Source: Paucibacter sp. B2R-40 (GTDB lineage: Bacteria; Pseudomonadota; Gammaproteobacteria; Burkholderiales; Burkholderiaceae_C). From it: 64,000 nucleotides of DNA. Of the stretch, positions 7,546 to 63,287 are shown in pieces; position 1 is the stretch's first letter, and every line of letters begins with the position of its first letter. A program made the position numbers and the translations under genes. Location: NCBI RefSeq assembly GCF_025717555.1, contig NZ_JAJIRP010000002.1, positions 248,001-312,000 on the forward strand, in the 5' to 3' direction. The notes under the pieces were generated by a model. That model saw only the letters and a program-made list of their open reading frames with translations, did no database searches and was not told where the DNA came from.

Positions 7546-9402
7546 TCACGACACCGTGTGCAGGCTGAGCTCGAAGGAAAAGCGGCTGCCGGCGCTAAAC
7601 TCGCTGTGCACATGGATTTCGCTGCCCATCTCACGCATCAGCTGCTGGCTGATCGACAGACCCAGGCCGGTGCCGCCCAGGCAGCGAGCGTCGTCCACCA
7701 CCTGCTCGAACGGCTGGAACAGGCGCACCAGTTGATGATCGGCAATGCCGATGCCGGTGTCGCTGACTTCGAAACTCAGGCGCGCCACGCCCTCTTGCAA
7801 ACTCAGCAAACGCACTGACAGCCCGACACTTCCCGTATCGGTGAATTTCATCGCATTCGAGAGCAGATTCAGCAAGACCTGACGCAGGCGTTGGCCGTCC
7901 ACCATCACCCTGGAGGGCAGTTGCAGGCCGAGGTCAATATTGAACAGCAGGTGCTTTTGCTCGATGCGCAGGCGCACGCTGTCACACACCATGTCCAAGA
8001 GCGCGCGCAGATCCACCGAACTCGGCTGCAAGCGCACCTTGCCGGCTTCGATGCTGGCGGTGTCGAGCACGTCCGTGATCAAGCTGAGCAAATGCTCGCC
8101 CGAGTCGCGCACCTGCGCGATCTTGCTTTGCTGCGCAGCACTCAGGCTGTCGTCCATCTGCAGCAACTGGGTGAAGCCCAGGATCGCGTTCAAGGGCGTT
8201 CGAAACTCATGACTCATGGTGGCCAAGAAGCGGCTCTTGGCCTGGCTGGCGGACTCGGCGCGTTGCTTGGCCTGGCTCAACTCCACGGTGCGCTCGGTGA
8301 CCAGCTCTTCCAGGTGGTCACGGTGATGGGTCAACTCTTGCTCGGCCAGGCGGCGCTGGCTGATGTCACTGACCATGCCCTCGATGCGGGTGCCGCTGCC
8401 ATCTGCCAAGGGCACGACATGAACGCTGAGCTCGACCCATAACTGCATACCTTCTCGGTTGGCGATCAGCAAGGGCACCTGCTGCAGCAAGCGATAACGG
8501 GTCAGCGCCCGGGCGATGCGCTTGTACTCCAGGGCCTCCACCTGCACCAGCGCGCGCAAGCGGCGACCCGACTTGAGCGCCTCTTGGGGCGAGGCGTAGC
8601 CCAGCATCTTGGCCAGCGCACGGTTCAGGCTCAGCAAGCGGCCCTTCGAGTCTGCTTGAAAGATACCCTCGGTGGCGTTCTCGAACAGGCTGCGGTAGCG
8701 CTCCTCGCTTTGGCGCAAGCCTACCGATGAATTCAGTAGGCGCTCGCTCATCGAATTGAACTGCTGGGTCAGTACACCGATCTCGTCGCTGTGCTCGACC
8801 TCGGTGCTCGCCCCCAACTCGCCCGCTGCCACGCGCTGCGCCATTGCGCCTAGCCGCTTGACCGGGCGTGTCACCAGGCGATTGATCAGCAAATAGCTGG
8901 TCGCAATCACCGCCGCCAAGGTGGCGGCGAGCAAGCCGGCGACAAAACGCCGCGTATGGGTGACCTGGGCCTGCACCAACTCACTCGTGGAGATCAGCAC
9001 CGCCTGGGCCACCAGCGTGGGCTCGGCATGCGGGCTGCTTTGATACATCACCGGAAACTCGCGGCGCAGCGGCAGCACGGCCGGCCGATTGCGCTCGCGC
9101 CGCAGCGGCGCGGCGTTGACACCCAAGCTGATCATCTCGACCGCATGCACCTCCGGGTCGGCCATCACCGCATCGAGCAAGTTCTCGATCGCCGTGCCGT
9201 CCAGATTCCAGATCGGGGCGGCAAAACTGCGCGCCACCAGATCGGCCATGCGCTGCTCGCGCTGCACCAGCGCCAGCGACAACTCGCGCTCTTCGGCCAC
9301 CGTCCAGTACCAGCCCAGCGCCAGCACCAGAATGCTCGCCACCAGGCCGATGCCGGCAATCAAGCGGGTCTGAATTCCAATGCTTACCGGGCTCCGTCCC
9401 AT
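7546..9402 (-). CDS. Membrane sensor histidine kinase (HAMP-PAS-HisKA-HATPase)
   Basis: A 618-aa kinase. An N-terminal membrane helix (GIGLVASILVLALGWYW), a periplasmic domain of about 120 residues and a second helix are followed by a HAMP linker (RPVKRLGAMAQRVAAGEL), a PAS domain, a coiled coil, the phosphoacceptor box SHEFRTPLNAILGF and an ATPase domain with NLLSNAMKFTDTG, DTGIGI and GGTGLGLSI motifs. It has no receiver domain and no adjacent response-regulator gene, so its partner lies elsewhere. The neighbours (topB upstream, AEC permease downstream) do not reveal the signal. Confidence 0.93.
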   Translation of the reverse strand: MGRSPVSIGIQTRLIAGIGLVASILVLALGWYWTVAEERELSLALVQREQRMADLVARSFAAPIWNLDGTAIENLLDAVMADPEVHAVEMISLGVNAAPLRRERNRPAVLPLRREFPVMYQSSPHAEPTLVAQAVLISTSELVQAQVTHTRRFVAGLLAATLAAVIATSYLLINRLVTRPVKRLGAMAQRVAAGELGASTEVEHSDEIGVLTQQFNSMSERLLNSSVGLRQSEERYRSLFENATEGIFQADSKGRLLSLNRALAKMLGYASPQEALKSGRRLRALVQVEALEYKRIARALTRYRLLQQVPLLIANREGMQLWVELSVHVVPLADGSGTRIEGMVSDISQRRLAEQELTHHRDHLEELVTERTVELSQAKQRAESASQAKSRFLATMSHEFRTPLNAILGFTQLLQMDDSLSAAQQSKIAQVRDSGEHLLSLITDVLDTASIEAGKVRLQPSSVDLRALLDMVCDSVRLRIEQKHLLFNIDLGLQLPSRVMVDGQRLRQVLLNLLSNAMKFTDTGSVGLSVRLLSLQEGVARLSFEVSDTGIGIADHQLVRLFQPFEQVVDDARCLGGTGLGLSISQQLMREMGSEIHVHSEFSAGSRFSFELSLHTVS

Positions 9403-9429
9403 GCTCCAGGTCCTCAGCGTTCAGCTTGA

Positions 9430-12189
9430 CTAAGCTGCCTTCTTGACGGCAACTTTCTTCGCTGCGGCCTTCTTTGCCGGCGCCTTCTTGGCCGCGACTT
9501 TCTTGGCTGCCACCGTCTTGGCTGGCGCAGCGGTCTTGGCCGCAGCTGGCTTGGCGCCGGGCTTGAGCGCACGCGGCTCAAACTCGAACATTACCTTGCC
9601 TTCCTTCTTGTCATAGGCCAGGAAAGCCTTGAACTTGCGGCGCGTCTTGTTGGAGACAAAGTTTTCCAGCAAGGCGGTCTTGCCCTCGGCCAGGAGCTTT
9701 TGCATCTGTGCCACTTCAATCGGCTGCTGCAAGATGATCTTGCCGCTCTTGAAGTCGCAGGTCACGGCCGCACCGACCGCATGTTCGCAGACATAGTTGG
9801 CCCCATGCTCGAACACATGACCCTGGCATTTCGGGCAAGCACCCAGCGAGGTCTGCGCGCTGAAGTCGACCGGCTCGCCGTCACCCTCGGCCTTTTTCGC
9901 GTCTTCACCGAAGTCGAATTCGAGCTTCCAGTTGTGGATCTCGTCGTCATAGACCAAGGCCAGCTCGGCGGTGAAAGGCCAACCGGCCTTGGAGCGGAAG
10001 CCCTCCAGCGGGCCGATCTTCTTGTCAGTCAAGAACTTCTCAACCTCATGTAACTCGAAGCTGCGGCCACCCGGAATCTTGCCGATCGAGAAGCCGCAGC
10101 CTTCTGCTGCGACCGGGTCGCCCGCCGGGCCGCTCCCAAGGGCGGCCACATCCCCTCGGGGGACCGGCTGCGTACCCGCAGCCGAGGGGCCATGTCCCCC
10201 GCCGATGCAGGTGTAGCGACGATAGTTCTCCTTCACCACGCCGCCACACTTCGGGCAGGGTGCCTTCAAGGTCGCGTAATCACCCGGGATGGTGTCGCGG
10301 TCATATTCCTTGGCCTTTTGCACCACGCGCTCGGTCATTGCGGCGATTTCGGCCATGAAGGTGTCGCGGTTCAAGCGGCCCTTCTCCATCTCGGCCAGCT
10401 GGAATTCCCAGTTGCCGGTCAGCTCGGGCTTGGTCAACTCCTGCACATCGAGGCCGCGCAGCAGCGTCATCAGCTGGAAGGACTTGGCGGTGGGCACCAG
10501 CTCGCGGCCGTCGCGCAGCATGTACTTCTCCATGATCAAGCCTTCGATGGTGGCCGCCCGCGTGGCTGGCGTGCCCAGGCCCTTCTCGGTCATCGCGGCG
10601 CGCAGCTCTTCGTCGTCGATCAGCTTGCCCGCTCCTTCCATCGCCGACAACAACGTCGCTTCGGTGTAGCGCGCCGGCGGCTTGGTCTGCAAACTCTTCA
10701 CATCGACGGACTCGGTGCGCACCACCTCGCCCGGCGCCACCGCGACCAGATTGGCGTCGTCTTCCTGCGCCTCTTTGCCATACACGGCCAGCCAGCCCGG
10801 TTTGACCAGGATCTTGCCGTTGGTCTGGAAGTTCAATTCCTGACCCGCCGCCTTGACGGTCGATATACGCGTCGTCACCATGAATTCGGCCGGCGGGAAG
10901 AACACGCCCAGGAAGCGCTTGACCACCATGTCATAGAGCTTGGCCTCGATGTCGCTGAGGCTCTTGGGCGCTTGCAGGGTCGGGATGATGGCAAAGTGAT
11001 CCGAGACCTTGGCGTTGTCGAAGACCTTCTTGGTCGGCTTGATATAGCCTTCCTTCAAGGCCTTGCGAGCATGGGTCGCCAGCTCGCGCAGTGGGCCCGG
11101 CATGTCCTCATTGGCGATCATCTCGGCGGTCTGCTTGGCGACGGCCAGATAGTCCTCGGGCAGATAGCGCGAGTCGGTCCGCGGGTAGGTCAGGACCTTG
11201 TGCTTCTCATACAAGGCCTGGGCCAGACTCAATGTGGTCTTGGCCGAGAAGCCAAAGCGCGAGTTGGCCTCGCGCTGCAAGGTCGTCAAGTCATAGAGGC
11301 CGCCGCAACTGCTGGTCGTGGGCTTACTTTCCTCGCGCACGCTGGCCGGCTGGCCGAGTGCGGCCAGCGCGATGGCGTCGGCATCGGCCCGGTTCCAGAC
11401 CCGGTCAGCACGGCGCTCCAGGTCCTCGTCTTTCTTCCAGGCCGGGTCAAACCACTTGCCTTCGTACTGGCCGGCGACGGCGTCGAAATTGGCGCGCACT
11501 TCCCAATAGTCACGCGAGACATGCTTGCGGATCTTTTCTTCACGCTCGACCACGATGGACAGCGTCGGCGTCTGCACCCGGCCCACGGTGGTCAGGAAGA
11601 AGCCGCCGTCGCGCGAATTGAAGGCCGTCATCGCCCGCGTACCGTTGATGCCGACCAGCCAGTCCGCCTCGGAGCGGCACCGCGCGGCATCCGCCAGCGG
11701 CAGCATCTGCGCGTCGCTCTTGAGCTTGCCGAACCCGTCGCGAATCGCCTGCGGCGTCATCGACTGCAGCCACAGCCGCTCGACCGGCTTGTTGATCGCG
11801 GCCTTGGCCGTGCCCGCATACTGAACGATCAAGCGGAAGATCAGCTCACCCTCGCGGCCCGCGTCACAGGCGTTGATCAGTTGGGTGACGTCCTTGCGGC
11901 GGATCAGCTTGACCAGGGCGTTCAGCCGGCCCTTGACCTTGTCGATAGGGTTCAGGTCAAAGTGAGGCGGGATCACCGGCAGATTGGCGAAACTCCATTT
12001 GCCGCGCTTAACGTCGAATTCCTCCGGCGCCTTGATCTCCACCAGATGGCCGACGGCCGAGCTGACCACATATTGATCGCTCTCGAAATATTCATCATGC
12101 TTTTCGAACTTGCCGGCGCTGGAGGTCAGCGCGCGGACGATGTCTTGAGCCACGGAGGGCTTCTCGGCAATGATCAGGGTCTTGCTCAT
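9430..12189 (-). CDS. topB: DNA topoisomerase III
   Basis: A 919-aa type IA topoisomerase. The Toprim start LIIAEKPSVAQDIVRAL, the ACDAGREGELIFR acidic motif, VGRVQTPTLSIV and the catalytic-tyrosine region LTYPRTDSRYL are all present. C-terminal zinc-ribbon-like CPKCGG and CPKCQG modules follow. Two oddities stand out. A Gly/Pro/Ala-rich stretch of about 30 residues interrupts the first zinc ribbon, and the last 45 residues are a Lys/Ala/Pro tail (AAKKVAAKKAPAKKAAAKK) resembling histone H1-like bacterial proteins. The enzyme decatenates DNA and resolves recombination intermediates. It is divergent from the SET-domain gene. Confidence 0.96.
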   Translation of the reverse strand: MSKTLIIAEKPSVAQDIVRALTSSAGKFEKHDEYFESDQYVVSSAVGHLVEIKAPEEFDVKRGKWSFANLPVIPPHFDLNPIDKVKGRLNALVKLIRRKDVTQLINACDAGREGELIFRLIVQYAGTAKAAINKPVERLWLQSMTPQAIRDGFGKLKSDAQMLPLADAARCRSEADWLVGINGTRAMTAFNSRDGGFFLTTVGRVQTPTLSIVVEREEKIRKHVSRDYWEVRANFDAVAGQYEGKWFDPAWKKDEDLERRADRVWNRADADAIALAALGQPASVREESKPTTSSCGGLYDLTTLQREANSRFGFSAKTTLSLAQALYEKHKVLTYPRTDSRYLPEDYLAVAKQTAEMIANEDMPGPLRELATHARKALKEGYIKPTKKVFDNAKVSDHFAIIPTLQAPKSLSDIEAKLYDMVVKRFLGVFFPPAEFMVTTRISTVKAAGQELNFQTNGKILVKPGWLAVYGKEAQEDDANLVAVAPGEVVRTESVDVKSLQTKPPARYTEATLLSAMEGAGKLIDDEELRAAMTEKGLGTPATRAATIEGLIMEKYMLRDGRELVPTAKSFQLMTLLRGLDVQELTKPELTGNWEFQLAEMEKGRLNRDTFMAEIAAMTERVVQKAKEYDRDTIPGDYATLKAPCPKCGGVVKENYRRYTCIGGGHGPSAAGTQPVPRGDVAALGSGPAGDPVAAEGCGFSIGKIPGGRSFELHEVEKFLTDKKIGPLEGFRSKAGWPFTAELALVYDDEIHNWKLEFDFGEDAKKAEGDGEPVDFSAQTSLGACPKCQGHVFEHGANYVCEHAVGAAVTCDFKSGKIILQQPIEVAQMQKLLAEGKTALLENFVSNKTRRKFKAFLAYDKKEGKVMFEFEPRALKPGAKPAAAKTAAPAKTVAAKKVAAKKAPAKKAAAKKVAVKKAA
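10112..10203. repeat. Palindromic insert within topB
   Basis: This in-frame segment of about 90 bp breaks the topB zinc ribbon. It contains GGCTGCG-TACC-CGCAGCC (10166-10183), a perfect 7-bp stem, and overlapping outer arms CCCCTCGG (10152) and CCGAGGGG (10182-10189). Such an arrangement is typical of small interspersed REP-like elements; whether other copies exist in the genome cannot be seen from this window. Boundaries are estimated from where normal TopB sequence resumes (CGFSIGKIPGGR). Confidence 0.5.
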
Positions 12190-15756: not shown

Positions 15757-18510
15757 TCAGGCCTTAGATCGCGTGCGGCGCAAGAGCCAGGTCGAAAAGC
15801 CCAGCATTGCGACCCACAGGCTGCTGAAAGCCCCGCCTCCACCTCCGCCGCCACTCTCGGCCACCGTCACGGGTGCCGCTGCGATCGCAAAGCTGCGCGA
15901 GACCGGCGTGGCGGCCGCAAAGCTGCTGTCACCCGCTTGCGTGGCGCTTACCGTGCAGGTGCCCACCAGCAGCAAGCTCAGGCTGTTGCCGCTGACGCTG
16001 CAGACCGACGGTGTGCTGGAGCTGAAGCTGATCGCCAGGCCCGAGCTCGCCGTGGCACTCAGGGCCGGTGCCGCTACGCCCAGCACTTGATCAGCGGGGC
16101 CTGTAAAGCTGATCGTCTGCGCGGCCGGCAGCACGGCGAAACTGCTGCTGACCTGAGCGGCCGCAGCGTAGTTCGCATTACCGGCCTGATTGGCCAGCAG
16201 CGTACAAGTTCCACTCGTCACCAAGCTGACTGCGCTGCCGCTGACGCTGCAAACAGCTGGTGTCGCGCTGGTGAACGACACCGCCAAGCCCGAGGAGGCG
16301 CTCGCACTCAAGACGGGCACGGCCACACCGATCGTTTGAGTCGCCACGCTCGCCACCGTGATGGTTTGCGCCGCTTGGGCCACCGTGAAGTTGCGCGTCA
16401 CCGGCGTTGCTGGCGCGTAAGTGTTGTTGCCCGTCTGGGTTGCCGAAACCGTGCAGGTACCGGCGGACAAGACCGTCAGGACCGCGCCACTGACGCTACA
16501 CACCGAGCCGGTGCTGGATGAAAAACCGACCGAGAGCCCTGAGCTGGCGCTGGCCGTCAAATTGAATGCGCTCACACCGAAGGTTTGATTTGACGGGCCG
16601 GCAAATGTGATGGTTTGCGCGGTGACGCCGGCTGAGCTGCTGACAGTAAAGCTGCGCGCGACCGAACTGGCGGCCGCATAGGTCGCATTGCCTGCCTGGG
16701 TCGCGGTGAGGCTGCAATTTCCGGCCGCCAAAAGACTCAAGGTACTGCCACTGACACTGCACACCGAGGGCGTTGTGGACGTAAAGCTAACTGTCAGGCC
16801 CGAGCTGGCGCTGGCCGTCAAGGCAATGGCGCCGCTGCCCAATATTTGATTGCCCGGGCCGGCAAAGCTGATGGTCTGAACGGTGGCGCCGACCAAGGTC
16901 GCGGCGACCGCCGCTCCCGCATCCAGCATGCCCGCACCACAGGTGCTGGTGGTGCAATAACATTCATCCTGTACGGCACTGGTGGGTGCGGTGCACTGCG
17001 CGATGCCGGCCGTACCACCACTGCTGACAAAGGGTCGGGCCGTCCTTTGCAAGATTGCCAACACCTCGGTGGACGTCAGGGAGGGTTTTGCCGAGACCAT
17101 CAAGGCCACCGTGCCCGCCACGATGGGGGCCGAGAAACTGGTGCCCACCGATGCGCCGTTGTTGGTGTAGGCCGCATCAGCCGCCACCGGGGTGGTGCTG
17201 CCGCTATTGGTGGTGGACAACATTGGGAACAGGCAGGCACCGCTCAAGTTGACGCAATTGCCGCCGGGCGCGGCGATGGCCACCTCGGGGCCGACGCTGG
17301 AAAAACCCACCTTGCTGCCGACATGGCGCAGACCGGTGACGGTAATCACGCCCGGGCAATTGCCAGGCAGGCCGACCGCTTGGCCCTCACTATTGCCCGC
17401 CGCCACGACGATGGTGGCGCCGGTGGCGATGACTTGGTTGATGGTGTCGCGGTAGGTGCCGGAGCCGGTAGCGCTACATGTCCCTGTGCCGCCAAGGCTC
17501 AGATTGAGCACCTTGGCCGGATTCGGATTGGTCGGCAGGCCAGGCACGGCGATGCCGGCCGCCCATTTCATGCCGGCCATGATGTCGGAGTCATAGCCGC
17601 CGCATTTGCCCAGCACGCGTATGGGCAGGATCTTCACGCCCCAGGCCACGCCGGCGATACCTTGGCCATTGTTGCTGCTGGCCGCAATCAGGCCGGACAC
17701 CCGCGTGCCATGCCAGCTGCTGTTGCCAATGTCAGTCGCGTCGCAACCCGTGCCGAGCGCTCCGCCGTTGATATCGGCTTGCGTGACGTAGTCACCCGGG
17801 TCGGAGGCATCACTGTCACGCCCCGCCACGCCGTCGCCGGCGGTGGCGTCATTGGCGATCATGTCGTAGCCGCCGACGAACTGCCCGGCCAGGTCAGGGT
17901 GGTCCTTGCGTACGCCGGTATCCAGCACCGCCACCACCACCGAACTGATGCCGGTGCTGGTGTCCCAGGCTGCAGGCGCGTTGATGCTGGATACCACCTC
18001 ACCGACCGGCGCCTTCAAATACCATTGCCCATTGGCTGAGCCATTGACACCACTCGGGGCGACGCCGCCAAAGCCAGCATACAAGGGGTCATTCGGCGTC
18101 ACGGCCGTATGCCGACGGCGCCCGTCAATGACCACCATCTCGACCTCGCTGTCCAAAGCCAGGCGCTTGACCAGCTCAGCGGAGCTGATGCCCTTGGCGG
18201 TGAACACATGCGTGCGCTCATCCAGGCTGCGATGGGCCTGCAGGCCGACCACGCCTTTGTTGACGCCGGTGCGCAGGCCTAAACCGGTGGCGCGGGTCTG
18301 CGCGATGTCTTGGGCTGAAGCCTTGCTCGCCTGGGCCGACATGATCTTGGCCCTCACACTCGGTGCGGCCGGCTTGAAGCGCACGATCACACGGGCGCTA
18401 TAGCTTTCGGCCGCCGAGGCCTCGGTGGCGGCCGCCAGCGAGGACTGCGGGTACAGCGCAGCGCCCAGTAGCAGGGTCGACAAAAAGGGCGCAAGGATCA
18501 GGTACTTCAT
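15757..18510 (-). CDS. S8 subtilisin-like serine protease with GlyGly-CTERM anchor
   Basis: A 917-aa secreted protease. A signal peptide is followed by a propeptide-like region to about residue 140, then a subtilase domain with the triad D197 (VAVLDTGV), H267 (SWHGTRVSG) and S458 (GTSFSAP). From about 545 to 880 there are four copies of an Ig-like repeat, each starting QTI and containing SVCSVSG. The C-terminus is a seven-Gly run, a hydrophobic helix and an Arg-rich end (LLRRTRSKA), which fits a GlyGly-CTERM sorting signal. Such signals are processed by rhombosortase; one is encoded at 51453. Confidence 0.92.
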   Translation of the reverse strand: MKYLILAPFLSTLLLGAALYPQSSLAAATEASAAESYSARVIVRFKPAAPSVRAKIMSAQASKASAQDIAQTRATGLGLRTGVNKGVVGLQAHRSLDERTHVFTAKGISSAELVKRLALDSEVEMVVIDGRRRHTAVTPNDPLYAGFGGVAPSGVNGSANGQWYLKAPVGEVVSSINAPAAWDTSTGISSVVVAVLDTGVRKDHPDLAGQFVGGYDMIANDATAGDGVAGRDSDASDPGDYVTQADINGGALGTGCDATDIGNSSWHGTRVSGLIAASSNNGQGIAGVAWGVKILPIRVLGKCGGYDSDIMAGMKWAAGIAVPGLPTNPNPAKVLNLSLGGTGTCSATGSGTYRDTINQVIATGATIVVAAGNSEGQAVGLPGNCPGVITVTGLRHVGSKVGFSSVGPEVAIAAPGGNCVNLSGACLFPMLSTTNSGSTTPVAADAAYTNNGASVGTSFSAPIVAGTVALMVSAKPSLTSTEVLAILQRTARPFVSSGGTAGIAQCTAPTSAVQDECYCTTSTCGAGMLDAGAAVAATLVGATVQTISFAGPGNQILGSGAIALTASASSGLTVSFTSTTPSVCSVSGSTLSLLAAGNCSLTATQAGNATYAAASSVARSFTVSSSAGVTAQTITFAGPSNQTFGVSAFNLTASASSGLSVGFSSSTGSVCSVSGAVLTVLSAGTCTVSATQTGNNTYAPATPVTRNFTVAQAAQTITVASVATQTIGVAVPVLSASASSGLAVSFTSATPAVCSVSGSAVSLVTSGTCTLLANQAGNANYAAAAQVSSSFAVLPAAQTISFTGPADQVLGVAAPALSATASSGLAISFSSSTPSVCSVSGNSLSLLLVGTCTVSATQAGDSSFAAATPVSRSFAIAAAPVTVAESGGGGGGGAFSSLWVAMLGFSTWLLRRTRSKA
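15860..16880 (-). repeat. Four tandem ~250-bp coding repeats
   Basis: Each unit encodes roughly 83 residues starting AQTI, with a central TASASSGL-type strand, a PSVCSVSG core and an ATQAGNATYA-type end. The copies have diverged at DNA level, so they look like old domain duplication. They form a stalk between the protease domain and the membrane anchor. Copy number could vary between strains. Confidence 0.75.
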
Positions 18511-53907: not shown

Positions 53908-53952
53908 ATGATTCAGCTCTGCGGTTTCTCGCTCTCGAATTACTACAACAAG
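53908..53952 (+). pseudogene. 5' fragment of interrupted glutathione S-transferase gene
   Basis: Fifteen codons, MIQLCGFSLSNYYNK, with a ribosome site (AGAAGG) upstream, then TAG. This is the start of a GST-like domain, where the CGFSLSNYYNK segment is the glutathione-binding region. The next codons in the reading frame (VKFF MLEKG) are found 8.7 kb away at 62667. The intervening DNA is the inserted element described below. Confidence 0.92.
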
Positions 53953-53996
53953 TAGGGTGAAGTGAGCTGCATTTTGTATTTAAGCCAGGTTTTATC

Positions 53997-54020
53997 TGTG
54001 AGAAATTAACGTTTCTTACA
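53997..54020. promoter_or_regulatory. Inverted repeat near left end of element
   Basis: TGTGAGAAA and TTTCTTACA flank a 6-bp centre (TTAACG), with 8 of 9 positions paired. It sits 44 bp inside the left junction and 20 bp before the -35 box of the recombinase operon. It could be a recombinase arm site or a repressor operator. This is inferred from symmetry alone. Confidence 0.45.
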
Positions 54021-54039
54021 AGACACTTTGTAATTCATA

Positions 54040-54067
54040 TTGTGAAATATTCTGCAGATGGTATGAT
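54040..54067 (+). promoter_or_regulatory. Promoter of recombinase operon, leaderless arrangement
   Basis: TTGTGA and TATGAT are separated by 16 bp. The ATG of the first recombinase starts at 54074, only 6 bp after the -10 box, which is where transcription should begin. The transcript would therefore have almost no leader and no ribosome site; none is visible before that ATG. Confidence 0.55.
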
Positions 54068-54073
54068 TTCATC

Positions 54074-55360
54074 ATGTCCATAAGCGCATCATTGCCTTGC
54101 CGACTCAAAACCTCCCTCTTCGGTTCGGGAGAGCGCGCTGCGTTTCTAGTCGACTCAGACGGCCTGCCAGAGCCTTACAGCACGCTCTACGTCACCATGA
54201 AGTTGCGGAATGCCGGGCATTCGGTTTCGACGCAGATAGCCGAGCTCAACGCAATCAACGTATTGTTTGCACACGCGGCAGAAGCCGGCATTGAGTTGGT
54301 ACCGCGCTTCAAGGCAGGGGACTACTTGGATAGAGTTGAGTGTGAAGCGTTACGCAGAAGCTCTCAACGCAATTACGGACCAAGCGCAAAGCACCAAGCC
54401 GTAGTAATTGCCCTCGGAAACGGCAAACGAGGGTACATCCCTGCCGTGCCTCCCGTCGCCCCGTCGACTCAGTACAAACGATTGTCTTACTTCGCACGCT
54501 TTTTAAAGTGGCTTGGCGAAGAGTTGGCCGGCGATAGCGGAGATGGACGGGCGCCGGTCATCAATGCGATGGTTGAGAACATTCAGGCACTGCGTCCGGC
54601 TCAAATCGACTCAAAGACCGACATAGAGTCGAATACATTTTCTCGCGAAGACGACGCCCTACTTTGTGGCCTCCTTGCCGAAGGCTCGCTGACAAACCCA
54701 TTCACCCCCATGGTGCAGGTCCGCAACTTGCTGGCTATCGACCTTTTGCGCCTTCTCGGGAAACGACGGGGTGAAATTTTAAACATCCGGTTGAGTGACA
54801 TCAACTTATCAAAACGACAAATTGACATCGTTCGACGCGCTGACAACGTGCACGACCCTCGCGTAAATCAGCCCTTGGTTAAAACGCGGTCGCACACGCT
54901 GCCAATCGGTCCAAGTTTGGTTAGCCTTATCAATCAATACTTGCCGCTACGTCGCTCAGTAGCTGGCGCGTCCAAGCATCCGTATTTGCTGGTGACGCAC
55001 AAGTCAGGCCCGACTCAAGGCCAGCCAATGACGATTGAGGCGCTTAAGGAAGTATTCAGAACCATCAAACGCGCAGAACCGCGGCTGTCCCACCTACATC
55101 CGCACCTACTGCGGCATTTCAACGGTGATGCAACTGCCAGGGCTCAGCAAGGTGACCAAGCAACCCCAGGAAACAGCGAACGCGACCGGCGCCAACGCAA
55201 TTTTTTGGCTGGACGTGCCCCCGAGTCAACCATGGACAGCCACTACACAGCACGCGAAACAGAGCGGCATGCAAATAAGACTTCGTTGAGAACACAAGAA
55301 GAGCTCACCAAGGCAATTAAATCCGCACACATCTCAAGCGAAGAGCCTGACAGCCTATGA
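54074..55360 (+). CDS. Tyrosine recombinase A of the element
   Basis: A 428-aa integrase-family protein. The N-terminal half is a SAM-like helical domain; the catalytic half holds Arg in LLGKRRGEILNIRLSDI, Lys in PLVKTRSHTLPIG, the HxxR box HPHLLRHFNGD and, near the end, APESTMDSHYTARE, which supplies the nucleophilic Tyr. All key positions look intact. It is the first gene of the six-gene operon and ends ATGA-overlapped with the second recombinase. GC content and codon use differ from the host genes on both sides. It probably makes the strand exchanges with one or both partners. Confidence 0.9.
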   Translation: MSISASLPCRLKTSLFGSGERAAFLVDSDGLPEPYSTLYVTMKLRNAGHSVSTQIAELNAINVLFAHAAEAGIELVPRFKAGDYLDRVECEALRRSSQRNYGPSAKHQAVVIALGNGKRGYIPAVPPVAPSTQYKRLSYFARFLKWLGEELAGDSGDGRAPVINAMVENIQALRPAQIDSKTDIESNTFSREDDALLCGLLAEGSLTNPFTPMVQVRNLLAIDLLRLLGKRRGEILNIRLSDINLSKRQIDIVRRADNVHDPRVNQPLVKTRSHTLPIGPSLVSLINQYLPLRRSVAGASKHPYLLVTHKSGPTQGQPMTIEALKEVFRTIKRAEPRLSHLHPHLLRHFNGDATARAQQGDQATPGNSERDRRQRNFLAGRAPESTMDSHYTARETERHANKTSLRTQEELTKAIKSAHISSEEPDSL

Positions 55361-57036
55361 AAAAGTCCAGCATTCCGAGACCGTTGGCGGTGCTCCCAGC
55401 ATCGAACAACCAGCCCTACTTGGTCATAACCAGGGATGGGGTGGAATTCGATAGTCGAATGCCAACGTGGCCTATCGATGCACAGACGACTCTTTACGTT
55501 GAAGACCTTTGCAGCCTCTTTGACTCAGAGCTAGCGGAAGGATTGGTTGGAACGCTGCGCAACCTAGTCAGCAAATTTAGTGCCAATACGGTACATGGGC
55601 ACGCGACAGTCTTACGACATTACCACCGAACGATTGCTCCTTCTAGTGTGATTCATCATTGGGACGCAAGCGACTTACGCGGCTATCGAGAAAGCCTCAT
55701 CAACGAATTCGGTCATGAAGAGTACCTGATAAGGCTACGGGCGTTCCTCAAACACTGGGGAGCGTTGCGGCAGCCGGGCGTCTCTGCCGACACGACCAGG
55801 GTACTGCGAGAAATGCGACTCAAGGCCTCTGAAAAAGGTCGCGCGGTACGCATTCAAGACCCCCAAAAAGGGCCCCTAACGCCAGATGAGCTACTCAATC
55901 TGACGCGAGACATTTACCGAGGCGTAGAAGCCGGCGACATCAGCTTAGAGCTACTCAGCCTCGTGGTCTTCCATATCGTTACGGGCCGAAGGACGGGCCA
56001 GTCAGCGGCCCTCAAGTGCCTGGATGTAGACAGAAGTCGAAAAGGGGACCCGACCCCCGGTAAAAATGAAGGCGAACAGCTCTATTTGTTACATGTGCCA
56101 AGGGCCAAACAACAAGGGCATGGGTTTCGAAGAACGCGTCGCAGCATACAGCTCATAGAGGTGAATTTCGCATTGTTCGAGGCTCAGCGTGAAATGGTGC
56201 GCGCCGAATTTAATCAACTCTTGGAAGAGAACGGCTTCCAATTGCAGCACTTAGACGTCGAGCACTTGCTGGCATGCGTACCCCTCTTCCCTAACTGGAA
56301 GAATATTCGCAATACCGTAACTGCCGCCAAATCACTCCGCGAGCAAAGCCACGCCCTCGCACTGGCCACCTTGCGGACTCACGCTGAAGGGCAGCTTTGG
56401 CACCTAACCCGAACCCAAGTAACAAAAATGCTGCAAAAGGCTGGCAAGCTGGCCGGGGCAAAAGCGCGTGATGGAACACCCCTGCAGTTAGACGTAACAC
56501 GCCTGCGATACACAAAGGGCACGGACTTGGCCCGCCAGGGCGTTAACCGGCCAACGATAGCCTGGTTGCTGGACCACTCCAACCTCGATAGCGCGGGCAT
56601 TTACATTGACAATTTACCCGAGCATGCTGCACATGTTAACGAAGCCTTAAAGGGCTCCCTGGTCATGAATCACGTTGCAGCCCTGTTCCGCGGCGAAATT
56701 GTGGACTCTGAAGCGGATGCAGTTGCCGGAAACGTCCCTCAACAAAGTCGAATTTACTACCAGGGTAACGGCGCAGCCACTTGCGGCATCCAAAAGCAGT
56801 GCGGTTTGGGAGGCGGAATCCCTCTAGCCTGCTACACCTGTGAGCGATTCCAACCTTGGATTGACGGCCCCCATGAATCTGTATTGGCCGATTTGCTCCG
56901 AGAACGCAGCCTCGAATGCAAAACCCTAGGCGACGACCATCCCGTAACTCGTCGACGTGACGCCACCATATCGGCAGTCATCAATGTAGTTCAGCGCTGC
57001 ACAGCCAGAAAACAAGAGCTGGCGGCTCGCACTTGA
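55357..57036 (+). CDS. Tyrosine recombinase B of the element
   Basis: A 559-aa integrase-family protein. The catalytic Arg lies in TGRRTGQSAALKCLDVD; later, VTRLRYTKGTDLARQG (in place of the usual HxLR) and LLDHSNLDSAGIYIDN with the final Tyr. A Cys-rich tail follows: CGIQKQCGLGG and CYTCERFQPWIDGPH, which looks like a zinc-binding module, then a basic end. It is longer than a simple integrase because of this tail. Start overlaps gene A by 4 bp (ATGA), and its stop overlaps gene C (TTGA). Confidence 0.88.
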   Translation: MKKSSIPRPLAVLPASNNQPYLVITRDGVEFDSRMPTWPIDAQTTLYVEDLCSLFDSELAEGLVGTLRNLVSKFSANTVHGHATVLRHYHRTIAPSSVIHHWDASDLRGYRESLINEFGHEEYLIRLRAFLKHWGALRQPGVSADTTRVLREMRLKASEKGRAVRIQDPQKGPLTPDELLNLTRDIYRGVEAGDISLELLSLVVFHIVTGRRTGQSAALKCLDVDRSRKGDPTPGKNEGEQLYLLHVPRAKQQGHGFRRTRRSIQLIEVNFALFEAQREMVRAEFNQLLEENGFQLQHLDVEHLLACVPLFPNWKNIRNTVTAAKSLREQSHALALATLRTHAEGQLWHLTRTQVTKMLQKAGKLAGAKARDGTPLQLDVTRLRYTKGTDLARQGVNRPTIAWLLDHSNLDSAGIYIDNLPEHAAHVNEALKGSLVMNHVAALFRGEIVDSEADAVAGNVPQQSRIYYQGNGAATCGIQKQCGLGGGIPLACYTCERFQPWIDGPHESVLADLLRERSLECKTLGDDHPVTRRRDATISAVINVVQRCTARKQELAART

Positions 57037-59276
57037 CAGTGAACAACTCACAAAAACCACTTCACTCCGAGTTGCGGAGTCGGGCCACTCGAAAGCGGGC
57101 AGAAGCCCTCGCTGCGTACATCCAAACAGCCCAAGAGGGCTTCAAGGGCTTAGCTTACGACTGGGAAGCGCCCCACTGGAAGGGAGTGGGTGTATTCGCC
57201 AAGCACGGCGTCGTGAAAGGCGGTCCAAGAACAAGGGGGTACGACAGCTCAGAGTTATTTGACCCCGGTTTCCTCGACTTTGCGAAAGCCTACATCAGGA
57301 CGCAGCACCTTCAAAATCCGAGAGAGTCAAAAGCCGAACAAGGCAGCCGTCTCATGGGGCTTCGCCTTGTTGAGCTAGCCCTTCTTGAGCTTCACGAAAT
57401 AGCCGACCCGTTGAAAATTGACCGAGGTGTTCTTGACCGCGCGACAGCGCTGGCGATGAAGCTTCACACAGGCGCATCCTGCCCTAAAGCCGGCAATGCT
57501 GTTCAATCGATGGTGCAGACCTTGATTGCCCAGGGCATCTTGCCAATTGAGCTGAATGGCTGGACATCACCAATTCGTTCGCACCGCAATATGGGCACCA
57601 CTGCGGGGAGTGAAGGGGACCGAGCTCGCCAACAGAAGTTACCCAGCCTGGAGGCTTTGCAGGTTCTGGCCAATATCTTCAATCGCGACTTGGACCCAGA
57701 AGACGACAGGCACCATAGGGACATCTACACCACGAGCGTCGTAGCTCTACTACTTTCGGCACCTTCTCGCGGGCAAGAAATTCATAGACTGCCTGTGAAC
57801 TTAGAAGTCAAGACTACTGACAGATTCGGCAACGAACAGACGGGGTTGCGGCTGCACGCGAGTAAGGGCTTCGGGGCCTACGTCAAGTGGGTATGGTCCG
57901 GCATGGTGCCTACCGCGCTAACTGCAATAAAGAGACTGACGTTAATTACAGAAGAAGCGCGCGCACTGGCTCGTCACCTTGAGAACGCCAAAACTCGCAA
58001 TCGATTCTTCCGCCATTCGAACTGCCCCGCGGTTGCTGATGACGAGCCACTGACTGCTGAGCAAGTTTGCATGGCGCTGGGCAAGGCAAGCACGGGAAGC
58101 CTTAGTACTGCGGGGCTCAGCACCGCAGACTGCCGGCATACGCTGGCCTCGCTGTGGAAAGATTGGGTACTCCCCCTCCACGAGAAAAAGCACCCCTACT
58201 TCCCTTACGTCAGCAAGAAAGACCAAGCACTTGGCAGTAAGGGAGGGCTAAAGTTCAGCGACGCCTTATTTTGCATGCGAGCCGACCAACTCTCGGCGCA
58301 TAGAACCAGCATGGTGACGCTATGGCTCCCTAGCCTGAGCTCGGCATTCGCGTTCGATGTCGCACCCTCAAGAGCAAGGGGGTCAGTCAACATTTTTGAC
58401 CGATATGGCTACACGAGTACCGACGGCAAGCCCTTGAAGCTGACGTCGCACCAACCACGCCACCTACTGAACACGGAGGCACAACATGTGGAATTGCCTG
58501 ACGACCTTATTGCGCACTGGTCGGGTCGCTTGAGCATTAAGCAAAACGAGACCTATGACAATCGGCCGGAGCAAGAGCGCGTGGACCATGCCCGCCCACT
58601 GATAGACGAAATGGACGCGCAGCTAGCCTATCGTCCCTCCAGGACCGAGGAGGCGCGTCCGCTGCAAGCCAGTCATTGGAGCATCGACAGCGGGCCAAAG
58701 CCTCGCTCATGTGCCGACCTTGACATCCAACCGCAGCTCGCTGGCCTTAAAACCGAGTATGGCGAGTGCCATCACGATTGGGCGATGGCCCCCTGCGAGG
58801 GCCTAGTTGCATGCCTAGAATGCAGCGAACACGCGTGCATCAAAGGCTCCGACTCCACCGCTCAAGAGAGGTTGGCCCGAATCGACCGCCTACACCGCCA
58901 AGTATTGGCTGAAGTCGAAAAGGCAAAGACAGCGGTTACCCAGGAGAACTGGGGAGCACAGGAGTGGCTGGCCCTGCAATTGCGCTACGCGACCAAGCTC
59001 GAACAGCTCATCTCAATCTTGCAAAACCCTGATGTGCCGGACCGGTCCGTCATTCGACTGTCCCACGCTCAGCATCCGACCCACTTGCACCGCGTCCTGC
59101 GCGGAATTGCCGAACGGGCTCTAGCGGATAACTCAGCGCCGGCTCATGTAATGAAGCAAATGCTTGATGCCTTGAGCAACGCCGAGCAAGGCGTCCAGTC
59201 GATTACTGTGCATAAGCCCAAGCAACTATCCAACCCAAACAAAGTAGCCTCGGAGACGGTAACGGATGGCTCGTAA
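57033..59276 (+). CDS. Tyrosine recombinase C of the element (large, zinc-motif type)
   Basis: About 747 aa, starting at TTG 57033 (TTGA overlap) or GTG 57039. The central catalytic region has Arg in LLSAPSRGQEIHRLPV, the HxxR box in LTSHQPRHLLNTEAQH and HWSGRLSIKQNETYDN, where the Tyr is the nucleophile. Downstream is a Cys/His cluster (ECHHDWAMAPCEGLVACLEC) and a helical, charged C-terminus. This is a less common branch of the tyrosine recombinases. It overlaps the next gene by 11 bp. Confidence 0.85.
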   Translation: MTVNNSQKPLHSELRSRATRKRAEALAAYIQTAQEGFKGLAYDWEAPHWKGVGVFAKHGVVKGGPRTRGYDSSELFDPGFLDFAKAYIRTQHLQNPRESKAEQGSRLMGLRLVELALLELHEIADPLKIDRGVLDRATALAMKLHTGASCPKAGNAVQSMVQTLIAQGILPIELNGWTSPIRSHRNMGTTAGSEGDRARQQKLPSLEALQVLANIFNRDLDPEDDRHHRDIYTTSVVALLLSAPSRGQEIHRLPVNLEVKTTDRFGNEQTGLRLHASKGFGAYVKWVWSGMVPTALTAIKRLTLITEEARALARHLENAKTRNRFFRHSNCPAVADDEPLTAEQVCMALGKASTGSLSTAGLSTADCRHTLASLWKDWVLPLHEKKHPYFPYVSKKDQALGSKGGLKFSDALFCMRADQLSAHRTSMVTLWLPSLSSAFAFDVAPSRARGSVNIFDRYGYTSTDGKPLKLTSHQPRHLLNTEAQHVELPDDLIAHWSGRLSIKQNETYDNRPEQERVDHARPLIDEMDAQLAYRPSRTEEARPLQASHWSIDSGPKPRSCADLDIQPQLAGLKTEYGECHHDWAMAPCEGLVACLECSEHACIKGSDSTAQERLARIDRLHRQVLAEVEKAKTAVTQENWGAQEWLALQLRYATKLEQLISILQNPDVPDRSVIRLSHAQHPTHLHRVLRGIAERALADNSAPAHVMKQMLDALSNAEQGVQSITVHKPKQLSNPNKVASETVTDGS

Positions 59277-59676
59277 CACACACATCAAGGCCGTCCACGT
59301 TGCGGCCATCCAAAACCTCATCCGAGCATGGGATGAGGAAAAGATAACTTGGGCGTCGGTTTGCGCAGCTGCGGAGCCAATTCTCGGCTACACGCCCAGT
59401 CGGTCCGGGCTAAATGCGCATCCCGGGGTGCTCGCGGCCTTCCAAGCCCGAAAGCAAGGCCTGACAGTTAGCCCGCCTGCTAAGCGCCCCATGCCCAGCA
59501 GCTTAGCTGCTGCAGGCCAGCAGCTAGCGGCCAAGAACGCCGAAATTGCGGAGTTGAACCGCACCCTTAGCAAATTTGAAGAGCAATTCAGACGTTGGCA
59601 GTACAACGCAAGGCTGCGCAAAATAACCCTGGAACAGCTGAACGAGCCACTTCCCGCAATCGACAGGACCCTCTGA
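59266..59676 (+). CDS. Small helical accessory protein D of the element
   Basis: A 136-aa protein starting inside gene C. Residues 1-60 look like a helix-turn-helix-type fold (VAAIQNLIRAWDEEKITWAS and a GYTPSRSGLNAHP loop); residues 75-125 form a charged helix (AAKNAEIAELNRTLSKFEEQF). It has no catalytic motif. Small proteins of this type accompany some multi-recombinase transposons (for example TnpC of Tn554) and probably guide or regulate the recombinases, which is inference. Confidence 0.7.
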   Translation: MARNTHIKAVHVAAIQNLIRAWDEEKITWASVCAAAEPILGYTPSRSGLNAHPGVLAAFQARKQGLTVSPPAKRPMPSSLAAAGQQLAAKNAEIAELNRTLSKFEEQFRRWQYNARLRKITLEQLNEPLPAIDRTL

Positions 59677-59677
59677 G

Positions 59678-60133
59678 ATGCCAAGCGTAGGGCACTTGGC
59701 GGCTCAAGCGGTTCGACGCTTCAATGAATGGGTGGTCGAACGAGACCGGGCGGCCGATTGGCCCGACTACATCCGTGCCGGAAAACTCAATCGCAGCGAG
59801 CTAGCCAAGGAGTGCGAGTTTGGCAGGGCGGCGCTGCAACAAAACCCGAGCCTTGCTGCAGCGTTGGCCGCATTGGAGGTTCGTTTAGCAGACCAAGGCG
59901 TCCTAAGCGCAGCGCCTCTGGTCGACCCGGAATTAAAAGCGATGGTCGGCGCTGCTGACGAGCAGGTTCGGCGGGCGATGTCAGCTCGCGCTACTCTGGA
60001 AAAGCGCGTCAAAACCCTCGAAGAACAAAACGCTGCCCTCCGGGCTGAAACAGCTGAACTGCGAGAACGGCTTCGACGCTCCGCGTTGGCAGACATTCAC
60101 TTGTCCCAGACTGGAAGGCTCCTTCCGCCATGA
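59678..60133 (+). CDS. Small coiled-coil accessory protein E of the element
   Basis: A 151-aa protein, starting 1 bp after gene D. Residues 1-60 are helical and contain NRSELAKECEFGRAALQQNP, which resembles a DNA-binding helix-turn-helix. Residues 100-135 form a coiled coil (RVKTLEEQNAALRAETAELR) followed by a short IHLSQTGRLLPP end. I recall similar ends in accessory proteins of integrase clusters. It overlaps the helicase gene by 4 bp. Confidence 0.72.
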   Translation: MPSVGHLAAQAVRRFNEWVVERDRAADWPDYIRAGKLNRSELAKECEFGRAALQQNPSLAAALAALEVRLADQGVLSAAPLVDPELKAMVGAADEQVRRAMSARATLEKRVKTLEEQNAALRAETAELRERLRRSALADIHLSQTGRLLPP

Positions 60134-62355
60134 GCGTGGTACAGGTGTTTCTCCGCGTAACGAGTGTGCGCTCGCGAGGTGCCGCCGGCGGTGCCATATT
60201 TGCCGGAAAAACGGATTTGGGAGAGAGTTACGTTGTAGTGGTGAACTACGCTCTCCTCGGGGACTCCAGTCTCGTTGAGCGCGCCCAAGTCTGGTCCGTT
60301 GAAGGCGAGGCCGCCCCCGTGTCATATACCGTGGACGGTATCGTTCGTAGCGAGGTGCAGATACGGGCCTCACAGGTAGCCTTGCAGCGCCCTAGCGGCA
60401 AGAACCTCGTCGCCTGGATTGCCCAGTCTTCCGAATGTATTGGCATCGGAGAAGTTCGAGCTCGACGGCTCTGGGAGACCTTCGGCACGGACCTGCCCGC
60501 GCTCATTGAGTCCGCAAACATTGCCGCGTTGGCGCCAGTGGTAGGAGAAGAGCCCGCCCGCACCCTTGTAGCCGCGTTTGAGAAGCACGGCATTGCGCAA
60601 GTTTTGCTCTGGCTGGACCAATTGGGGCTACCAAGGGCGCTAGGGGCCTCTGTAGCGCGTTACTGGGGGAAAGACGCCAGAGTCAAGGTCGGAATGAATC
60701 CGTACGTCCTTGTGTCCTTCTGCGCGGACTGGAAGACGGTTGACGACCTCGCACAGAAACGCTTTGAAATAGGCCCAGATGACTCGCGGCGACTCATAGC
60801 TGCCGTCGAAGAAGCCCTCTACAGAGCAATGGACAGAGGGGACACCGCGCTGCCCTGCGAAAACCTTAAGAGTCGATTGCGCCTGCTTCTGGGAAATTCT
60901 CAGCGGGCCGAGCTAGCCCTATCGGCAGCGCTGGGTAGCGGCGTAGTTACTGAATCGGCCGGCCTAGTCCAAGCAAAAGGCCTGGCTCACATAGAGGAAA
61001 CCATTGCTGCTCGGTTAAAAGCACTGCAAGCCGGTCGAGGCCCCGACCAAGATGAGCTGTTCACTGTGGACTTGCCTCGAACTCAAGATGTGCAGAACTC
61101 AGTTGCGCTCTATGAGTCCTTGCACAGCATCGAGCTGACGCCCGAGCAGCGCGAAGCAATATTGACCTCCGCAACCAACCGAGTGAGCCTCATTCTGGGG
61201 GGAGCTGGAACGGGGAAGACCACCGTCCTAAAAGCGCTATGTCAAGCTATCGACCAAGTGACGCCAGGCGCCACCATTCATCAAATTGCATTGGCAGGTC
61301 GTGCTGCTCAACGGATGACTCAGGCGACAGGTCGGCCAAGCAAGACCATTGCGGCTTTCCTGCTTGACGACGATATCGCGCCAGGCTCGACCGTCCTCCT
61401 TGACGAGGCCAGCATGGTCGATGTCATCCTGATGTATCGACTCCTTCGACACATCCCTGCCGTACGCCTAGTTCTGATTGGCGACCCCTCGCAGCTGCCG
61501 CCGATTGGCCCCGGCCTCGTTCTCCACGCATTGGTTGGGCAGCCGTCAATTCCGCAGACCCTTTTAAAGACGGTCAAGCGGCAGACGGCAGCATCCGGAA
61601 TACCTATGGTGGCGAAAGCAGTCCGGGACCACTGCAACCCCGAGTGGGCGCCTTACGTCGGGAAGGGAACAGGGGTGTCGGTTGTACCCTGCTCGGAAGG
61701 CGCCCTTGACGCCACCGTAGCCAACATCTACTCGGAACTGGGGGGGACCGGTCAGGACTTCTCAGTCCAAGTGCTAAGCACGACCCGCTCCGGAGCGGGC
61801 GGAATACGGGCGCTAAACGACATTCTGCACAGTCGTTTCGCGCCAAAGGCGCAGCCCGTGTGCAGCCATAGCAATGAGTTTGGCTCGGTCAATGAGAGAA
61901 CCGCCGACCAACTCAGCCTCTTCGTGGGCGACTTGGTGCTCTTCGGGTCCAACGATTACACCCTAGGCTTGCGAAATGGCGCACTGGGCTGCGTCAGCGA
62001 GTCGCTCAACCCCGCCAGCGCGGATGAACCTGTTTGCAGGGCCGAATTTGAAGGGGTGCCCTATGAGTTGACTGCGGCGCATGTGCGGCACGTCATCCAT
62101 GCTTATGCGATGACCATTCACAAGGCGCAGGGAAGCCAGTTTGAACGTGTCATCGTCCCTATTCGGTACTCCAGGATTCTCGACAATTCCTTGCTGTACA
62201 CGGCCATAACTCGGGCGATTGGCCAGGTGGTCTTGGTCGGAGATATCCGAGCTGCGGAACAGGCCATACTCGCCCCGAGTTCCGCTTCGTTGCGCACCAC
62301 CAGGTTGCAGGCGCTGATGCAGTGCGCAGAAACACCCCCTTCAAGACCGAATTAA
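60130..62355 (+). CDS. RecD-like superfamily 1 helicase of the element
   Basis: A 741-aa protein. Residues 1-110 look like an OB-type domain, followed by a helix-hairpin-helix region (IGIGEVRARRLWETFGTD). The helicase core has Walker A GGAGTGKTTVL, Walker B LLDEASMVD, motif III LIGDPSQLPPIG, motif V TIHKAQGSQF and motif VI LYTAITRA. All motifs look intact, so it should be an active 5'-3' helicase of the RecD2 class. It is the last gene of the recombinase operon, overlapping gene E (ATGA), which suggests a role in moving or replicating the element. Confidence 0.9.
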   Translation: MSVVQVFLRVTSVRSRGAAGGAIFAGKTDLGESYVVVVNYALLGDSSLVERAQVWSVEGEAAPVSYTVDGIVRSEVQIRASQVALQRPSGKNLVAWIAQSSECIGIGEVRARRLWETFGTDLPALIESANIAALAPVVGEEPARTLVAAFEKHGIAQVLLWLDQLGLPRALGASVARYWGKDARVKVGMNPYVLVSFCADWKTVDDLAQKRFEIGPDDSRRLIAAVEEALYRAMDRGDTALPCENLKSRLRLLLGNSQRAELALSAALGSGVVTESAGLVQAKGLAHIEETIAARLKALQAGRGPDQDELFTVDLPRTQDVQNSVALYESLHSIELTPEQREAILTSATNRVSLILGGAGTGKTTVLKALCQAIDQVTPGATIHQIALAGRAAQRMTQATGRPSKTIAAFLLDDDIAPGSTVLLDEASMVDVILMYRLLRHIPAVRLVLIGDPSQLPPIGPGLVLHALVGQPSIPQTLLKTVKRQTAASGIPMVAKAVRDHCNPEWAPYVGKGTGVSVVPCSEGALDATVANIYSELGGTGQDFSVQVLSTTRSGAGGIRALNDILHSRFAPKAQPVCSHSNEFGSVNERTADQLSLFVGDLVLFGSNDYTLGLRNGALGCVSESLNPASADEPVCRAEFEGVPYELTAAHVRHVIHAYAMTIHKAQGSQFERVIVPIRYSRILDNSLLYTAITRAIGQVVLVGDIRAAEQAILAPSSASLRTTRLQALMQCAETPPSRPN

Positions 62356-62401
62356 AGCTGGCTGCGTAACACCCTCGTTCCAGAGGAGCATCGGCCCCTT
62401 G

Positions 62402-62440
62402 CCCGCCGCTAGCGGCGGGTCGCCGGGAAGGCCCCGGCGA
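62402..62440. terminator. Two adjacent hairpins at the end of the recombinase operon
   Basis: CCCGCCGCT/AGCGGCGGG (62402-62419) is a perfect 18-bp palindrome and TCGCCGGG/CCCGGCGA (62420-62440) is an 8-bp stem with a 5-nt loop. They lie 47 bp past the helicase stop. There is no T run, so they may act as a factor-dependent terminator, a protein-binding site, or a structured element used in recombination. Confidence 0.5.
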
Positions 62441-62564
62441 GGGTATGCGACGAACACCCAATCTTGGCGGCGCTGCCCCACGCCTCGGGTCAATTGGCGT
62501 TAGCCGAGTTTGTGACGGAAATGTCGGTAACGGCCCACGTCCAAGTCGCTTACCTACTAACTTA

Positions 62565-62593
62565 TGGACATAATTCAAGCAATCTCGTATAAT
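62565..62593 (+). promoter_or_regulatory. Outward-facing strong promoter near right end
   Basis: TGGACA and TATAAT, a perfect -10, are separated by exactly 17 bp. Direction is rightward, out of the element and into the GST remnant. Just after it is a short inverted repeat CCTCT-TTACAT-AGAGG (62598-62613) at the likely start site, then a Shine-Dalgarno-like AGAGGAAA. No start codon follows at the right distance. Confidence 0.7.
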
Positions 62594-62666
62594 CAGACCT
62601 CTTTACATAGAGGAAATTCCACTCACTCAGTCAGTTTGCAAGCGCTGAACTCTCCTTAATTATAAG

Positions 62667-63287
62667 GTCAAGTTCTTCATGCTGGAGAAGGGCATCCCCT
62701 TCGAAGAGCAGTTGGTGATGACGCACTCGCACGAAGAGGCCGTGTTGACCTGCAGCCCGCTCGGCAAGGTGCCTTTCATCCGCACGCCGCAAGGCGCTTT
62801 GTGCGAGAGCCAGGTCATCCTTGACTATTTGGAGGCCGCCCACCCGAGCCCGGCGCTGCTGCCCAGCGACGCCTTCGAAGCGGCCAAACAGCGTGAGCTG
62901 ATCGTCTTCATTGAGCTGCACCTGGAGTTGGTGGCGCGCGAGCTGTACGGTCAAGCCTTTTTCGGCGGCACCGTCAGCGAAGGTACGAAGGCGCGCGTCC
63001 ACAAACTGCTGGTCAACAACATCGCCGGCTTCAAGCGCCTGGCCCGCTTTGGTCCCTACGTCGGCGGCGAACAGTTCGCCATGGCCGATTGCGCCGCCTG
63101 GGTCAGTCTGCCGCTGGTGGCAATGGCCAGCAAGGCGGTGTTGGGCGAAGACCTGTTGGCGGCCGGCGGCATCGACTGGAAGTCCTATGCCAAGCTGGTC
63201 GGCGAGCGACCCGCCGCGCTGACGGTGGCCGCCGACCGCAAGGCCGATCAAGACCGCATCGCCTTGTTGAAGGCGCAAGGCGGCTGA
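62667..63287 (+). pseudogene. 3' fragment of interrupted glutathione S-transferase gene
   Basis: The frame resumes VKFFMLEKGIPFEEQLVM, then the thioredoxin-like GKVPFIRTPQGALCESQVI (with the conserved cis-Pro after Val) and the helical GST C-domain to residue 221 of the rejoined protein. It has lost the first 15 residues, including the glutathione-binding start. A protein could still be made from ATG 62679, perhaps driven by the outward promoter, but it would lack the active-site strand and is probably inactive. Confidence 0.88.

Follow-up and report, generated by a model that had tools for sequence, protein, structure and literature searches.

The closest described relatives of the element analysed here are the GInts, which are defined by the ginABCD operon and whose GinD protein resembles TnpC (Bardaji et al. 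2017, PMC5385486). According to the main text of that paper, GInts insert at the ends of ssb and of the ribonucleotide reductase alpha gene with high site specificity, some insertions being at 5' ends; their cargo lies downstream of ginD, before the 3' end, and has a lower limit of 2.5 kb. Strand exchange with a 6-nt stagger has been proposed for them, their ends carry imperfect direct repeats, and their excision as a circle requires all four genes. A second relevant group, the gamma-mobile-trio (GMT) elements (Mahata et al. 2024), is known here through NCBI gene names and a passage in PMC12715929. Here, we describe a GInt-type element in a 64,000-nucleotide stretch of Paucibacter sp. B2R-40 (contig NZ_JAJIRP010000002.1, positions 248,001 to 312,000; hereafter the window), in which a ginABCD-like core is followed by genes for a VPA1267 family protein and a RecD2-like helicase, and in which a short motif, CACTCACTCA, lies just inside the right end.

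The element spans positions 53953-62666 of the window (+ strand), or 8,714 bp when a single copy of the AAG common to both junctions is counted. Comparison with same-genus loci placed its limits, as flank homology stopped at 53952 on the left and started again at 62664 on the right, and the site was uninterrupted in 10/10 loci compared (L015-L024; L and G numbers label loci of the comparison set). Joining both flanks gave a single open frame, which we take from its translation to be a glutathione-S-transferase-like gene. The insertion interrupts this gene after codon 15, leaving a 5' part of 15 codons at 53908-53952 and a 3' part at 62667-63287, both on the + strand. The gene on the operon's right-hand side had matches in 16 of 39 related genomes searched, the window's own genome included. 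At the left junction the sequence AACAAG of the uninterrupted site is retained (53947-53952, + strand), and the right junction carries TATAAG (62661-62666, + strand), the first three bases of which are unlike the target. The junctions would fit a 6-bp core with three mismatches, as proposed for GInts and for SEs (main texts of PMC5385486 and PMC10214605); a 10-11-nt repeat was not demonstrated. Terminal inverted repeats were weak. A 21-bp inverted repeat (81% complementary) was seen near both element ends, at 54064-54084 and 62561-62581. The G+C content of the element was 56.5%, against 63.9% for the part of the window left of it, and the genome contained one copy of the GinC gene.

Six intact ORFs, all on the + strand, occupy positions 54074-62355. 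The first four overlap in turn by 4, 4 and 11 bp, genes 4 and 5 are 1 bp apart, and genes 5 and 6 overlap by 4 bp. Gene 1 (54074-55360, 428 aa), GinA-like by position and kin, and the GinB-like gene 2 (55357-57036, 559 aa) encode tyrosine recombinases, both scoring above the Pfam Phage_integrase cut-off of 27.1 bits (46.5 and 29.5 bits, respectively), with gene 2 also matching NF041502 (381.6 bits, cut-off 350). Gene 3 (57033-59276, 747 aa, TTG start) encodes a large, GinC-like protein with no significant Pfam match. Its residues R246, K278, H473, R476, R499 and Y508 were invariant across 23 aligned sequences, which we read as a putative recombinase active site, and its profile gave a weak match in the PDB to the XerC-like recombinase 4a8e (E 0.0086). 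Gene 4 (59266-59676, 136 aa) encodes a small protein, GinD-like by position. Gene 5 (59678-60133, 151 aa) belongs to the VPA1267 family (NF040697, 102.5 bits, cut-off 90), gave weak coiled-coil matches and is distant kin of gene 4 (profile comparison probability 94.8%). Gene 6 (60130-62355, 741 aa) encodes an SF1 helicase with the Pfam domains AAA_30, UvrD_C_2 and HHH_RecD2, which is RecD2-like at a score of 339.8 bits, under the NCBIfam RecD2 cut-off of 500. Its helicase motifs were located by position in the sequence. Gene 1 starts 121 bp inside the left end and gene 6 stops 311 bp short of the right end, margins too narrow for cargo genes of ordinary size, and the gene content of the element is the six operon genes only. 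An earlier note made from the sequence of this region had thus been right on the six coupled frames and their junctions, the three recombinases, the two small proteins (gene 5 was unnamed there), the SF1 helicase and the lack of cargo.

In make-up, genes 1-4 match ginABCD, the operon defining GInts in the main text of PMC5385486, with three tyrosine recombinases followed by a small fourth protein in the same order. This link to the published GinABCD rests on gene order, gene sizes and the insertion sites of relatives, homology being known from the relatives only. Genes 1-4 were found together in L001-L003 (recombinase identity 43-50%), on Klebsiella oxytoca and Escherichia coli plasmids and elsewhere. 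In L003 the four-gene core lies between the ribonucleotide reductase alpha and beta genes, L001 and L002 have a comparable 973-aa ORF upstream of it, and in L004, L005, L039, L042, L043 and L045 it lies behind a gene ending like ssb (annotated ssb in five). We identified the core as GInt-type because its anatomy and site choice agree with those of GInts: a single operon of three tyrosine recombinases and a small protein, and relatives at ssb and reductase ends (PMC5385486, main text). In contrast to GInts, the Paucibacter element cuts its target after codon 15 and is cargo-free, with only the VPA1267-helicase pair behind the fourth gene, unless these two genes are themselves counted as cargo. 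The main text of PMC5385486 contains none of the terms 'helicase', 'RecD', 'AAA' and 'dif site'. The earlier note's proposal of an undescribed transposon class therefore holds only in part: a class of its own is not supported, since the core has the ginABCD make-up of GInts, which the note had not considered, but the addition of genes 5 and 6 is unmatched by any 'helicase' in that main text.

Two other multi-recombinase families share some features with the element. SEs, by the main text of PMC10214605, also have several recombinases per operon, and the window junctions fit their rule that attL keeps the 6 bp of the target while attR has the 6 bp carried over; however, their gene set is intA, tfp, intB and srap, and SE and GInt genes share no blast similarity. 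RIT elements likewise have three adjacent recombinase genes with short overlaps, but are about 3.5 kb long (PMC3414803, main text). The word 'helicase' occurs in neither of these two main texts. Judged by gene count, the Tn554-like set TnpA, TnpB and TnpC (listed in the main text of PMC10214605) differs too, with two recombinases and one small protein against three recombinase-like and two small proteins in the window.

The VPA1267-helicase pair proved to be a closely linked unit. A RecD-like ORF lay downstream of the VPA1267 gene, on the same strand, in 44/44 VPA1267 loci (11/11, 13/13 and 20/20 in three sets), and the pair directly followed the recombinase operon wherever such an operon was recognised. 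Thirty-one of these loci came from searches with the VPA1267 family, the RecD-like gene following in 31/31; the searches gave matches in 3/399, 10/398 and 22/197 genomes (own or earlier ones included), and the last yielded 24 places, two already known, with 20 of the other 22 examined. Upstream of the 31 loci, 17 had a GInt-type trio and five a GmtZ or GmtX profile match, the remaining nine having one or two recombinase matches, none, or a cut contig. The helicase frame was broken in L050, G1209, G1154, G1207 and G1198, and in L063 the two genes were 1.5 kb apart. Profiles were needed to find such loci on plasmids, where tblastn with gene 5 returned nothing at E 1e-3 despite homologues being present. 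On a Salmonella plasmid (L013), a RecD-like gene at 8866-10893 occurred without VPA1267, near a mercury operon and with the right-end motif at 12651.

The pair was also shared between backbones. Two GMT operons on IncC plasmids (L010 and L011) end with a VPA1267 family gene and an AAA ATPase gene, homologues of genes 5 and 6 which, as in the window, follow the recombinases. Their GmtY matched the iterated gene-1 profile, whereas the rest of their core consists of a VPA1269/integrase protein and gmtX. The window itself lacks the GmtY, GmtZ, GmtX core: none of its six proteins matched a GMT-named NCBIfam model, and profiles of the second and third genes of the two IncC copies matched their own sources only, with no window match, in the locus set. 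The GInt-trio locus L057 matched L058 only across VPA1267 and RecD (2,611 bp, 83.2% DNA identity; blastn E 1e-5), and the same two genes matched GMT locus L010 at 74.3% (blastn E 1e-5). In the helicase tree, L057 clustered with L010, L013 and L058 (support 100/98); the GMT label of L058, L059 and L060 in this tree reflects layout and a weak recombinase match, the GmtZ and GmtX profiles giving no match. In a GinC tree of 33 rows, pair presence required six changes, at least four of them forced by well-supported branches, a count that is rough because several rows are long-branched. By these comparisons, the pair is a portable module that adjoins recombinase operons of at least two types. Although the earlier note treated GMT elements as different, the operons of two IncC copies close with the same two gene families.

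Among the rhizobial elements the six genes were constant. Variable genes lay between the helicase and the right end in L031, L032 and L051, and none did in L012, L033 and L049; L031 and L051 carried the same variable genes in different surroundings and L032 carried others. This position of the variable genes, the 44/44 linkage and a motif found in many pair-bearing elements bear out the earlier note's view that the helicase is unlike ordinary cargo. In L033 from 5606 on (Bradyrhizobium ottawaense pBoOO86), a second six-gene copy stands in tandem with the first and starts 8,754 bp after it, with inverted ends at the junction; this second copy runs off the end of the fetched stretch.

The right ends of the window element and the rhizobial elements had CACTCACTCA in common. 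It occurs once in the window (62620-62629, + strand; 0.06 matches expected from shuffles), its first base lying 47 bp from the last element base. An exact + strand copy was found in 11/25 pair loci (the window, L010-L013, L031-L033 and L049-L051), including both IncC GMT operons, and L052 had a one-base variant; further downstream DNA revealed it in L058 and L059 too. In a later test on 20 loci not used before, seven had the motif, all on the + strand downstream of RecD and none on the minus strand, compared to 0.44 expected on the + strand from base composition. The distance from first motif base to last element base was 45 in seven rhizobial elements, 46 in L010 and, as the motif there overlaps itself, 42 or 46 in L049; measured to a repeat of left-flank sequence, it was 46 in L058 and 42 or 46 in G1213. 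The last element base of L010 was placed at 17243, where 10 of the 12 matches listed began at query base 55 (1,079 plasmid records), and its left match stopped at 3620 in 10 of the 12 listed. The right end of L059 is unconfirmed because its right flank is unlike the tRNA-Arg genes on the left, with which it gave no match. A right-end motif in pair-bearing GInt and GMT elements appears to be new here, but this motif or the pair may have been described before, in Mahata et al. 2024.

We also considered whether pair-bearing elements have relaxed targets and pair-less ones are site-specific, and rejected this given the dif-like palindromes and endonuclease III-end insertions. Just outside the left end, 8/8 rhizobial elements (L012, L031-L033, L049-L052) had a dif-like palindrome made up of GCATAA or a near match to it, six bases and TTATGGAA. 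It may be their target, because the same palindrome was present without an element in L053 and L054, near an ISNCY-type transposase gene. By eye, the pair-bearing GInts G1224, G1232 and G1217 are located after the apparent end of an endonuclease III gene. The pair-less rhizobial-type relatives L034-L038 also seem to have palindromes left of the first recombinase gene, again by eye.

We favour the reading, at a probability of roughly 0.68, that this is a minimal, cargo-free GInt to which a VPA1267 and RecD2-like helicase module has been added, and that the module acts at the right end, perhaps in copy-out or circle replication. The defined ends within a gene, the ginABCD order, the module as a unit, its sharing between backbones and the motif are the parts that can be read from sequence; action of the pair at the right end is what we consider most likely. 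The recombinases would exchange strands with a 6-bp stagger and the element would move via a circle, as proposed for GInts. Less certainly, VPA1267 might bind CACTCACTCA at the right end and recruit the helicase, and the helicase might then start unwinding there, allowing copy-out of one strand or replication of the circle. A GinD-like role for VPA1267 is suggested by the profile match to gene 4 together with the published resemblance of GinD to TnpC (PMC5385486, main text). Our more specific proposal is tentative and somewhat less probable than its converse: that VPA1267 and the RecD2-like helicase form a portable transposition module of GInt and GMT elements which recognises its own site, CACTCACTCA, some 46 bp in from the right end and powers a strand-specific copy-out, giving replicative movement though only tyrosine recombinases are encoded.

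Several observations weigh against this favoured reading. L001-L003, the nearest relatives, lack the pair, as do the other pair-less GInt loci (20 in all: L001-L005, L034-L046, L068 and L069), so that GInts can evidently move without it. The matches to other genomes in searches with the window GinC (1/399 and 2/350 genomes) were all pair-less. Taking all GInts together, the helicase occurs only in some copies, the observation that the earlier note had named as grounds for abandoning its claim. Among 39 pair loci with enough downstream DNA (five short contigs and L013 excluded), the motif was present in 20, counting L052 by its variant, and absent from 19. Ranked by VPA1267 profile score, it occurred in 20/24 loci at or above 110 bits and in 0/15 below (Fisher, 1.5e-7), a value which gives no probability of function because the 110-bit cut was post hoc, the profile came partly from the same rows and the rows are related. 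The tie between motif and VPA1267 subfamily tracks descent and need not be causal, and L008, L009, L048 and G1246 combined a high VPA1267 score with no motif. Minus-strand copies also occurred in pair loci, in L033 at 14198 (the end of the helicase) and downstream of L058. The motif was found in 0/20 pair-less GInt loci, but this absence is weak evidence because most right ends there are unlocated, being seen only in L001-L003 and, as ssb-end repeats, in L005 and L039. Finally, an AlphaFold model of gene 3 built from four sequences was unusable (mean pLDDT 38.7).

The strongest alternative, though unlikely in our judgement, is that the pair replicates or maintains the excised circle at an iteron-like origin, with ACTC repeats as the origin or initiator site, VPA1267 as the binder and RecD2 as the helicase. 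It overlaps the last step of the favoured reading but leaves strand exchange to the recombinases alone. The motif being a short direct repeat (longer in G1149a) would suit such an origin, as would the dispensability of the pair for GInts in general and the gene with a RepB-primase domain beside the pair in Rhodovastum L008. Yet the motif does not occur at arbitrary positions, its first base lying 42-47 bp from the end in elements whose end can be placed, and Pfam and NCBIfam scans recognised no replication initiator among the six window proteins.

A distinctly less probable alternative is a GInt of the ordinary kind carrying unrelated cargo of 2.7 kb, just above the 2.5-kb lower limit given in the main text of PMC5385486, the motif reflecting common descent of right ends without any link to the pair. 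The rhizobial right ends are homologous and therefore not independent, and the motif is missing from almost half of the loci with the pair, both of which this explanation accommodates. It does not account so readily for a motif common to GInt and GMT right ends whose other terminal bases and recombinases differ, and which occurs in none of the 20 pair-less GInt loci. Least probable of all is that the pair is defence or addiction cargo sitting first behind the recombinase operon by chance: PADLOC RecD-like models match gene 6 (typeIV_RecD, E 8e-51), defence genes, for example Avs4 or Qat, are present in some loci of GInt type, and pair-less GInts are common in the locus set, but VPA1267 and RecD remain together at the operon end beside different recombinases, the variable genes of rhizobial elements sit further right, and the terminal motif is common to many pair-bearing elements. 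One of those defence genes, the anti-phage gene Avs4, lies directly behind the ginABCD-type operon of the E. coli plasmid locus L005 (12543-17306).

The favoured reading, of a minimal GInt with a helicase module acting at its right end, bears on how these elements move. The passages on circle formation in PMC5385486 and PMC10214605 do not settle how GInts and SEs form their circles, for which an empty site often cannot be detected, and a helicase module whose terminal site keeps a nearly fixed distance from the end would be a concrete candidate for copy-out. At 8.7 kb and free of cargo, the Paucibacter element is small enough for testing as a whole. Finally, the pair links two families that have been described separately and that carry defence, resistance or fitness genes (PMC5385486, main text; PMC12715929, in the passage on GMT elements).

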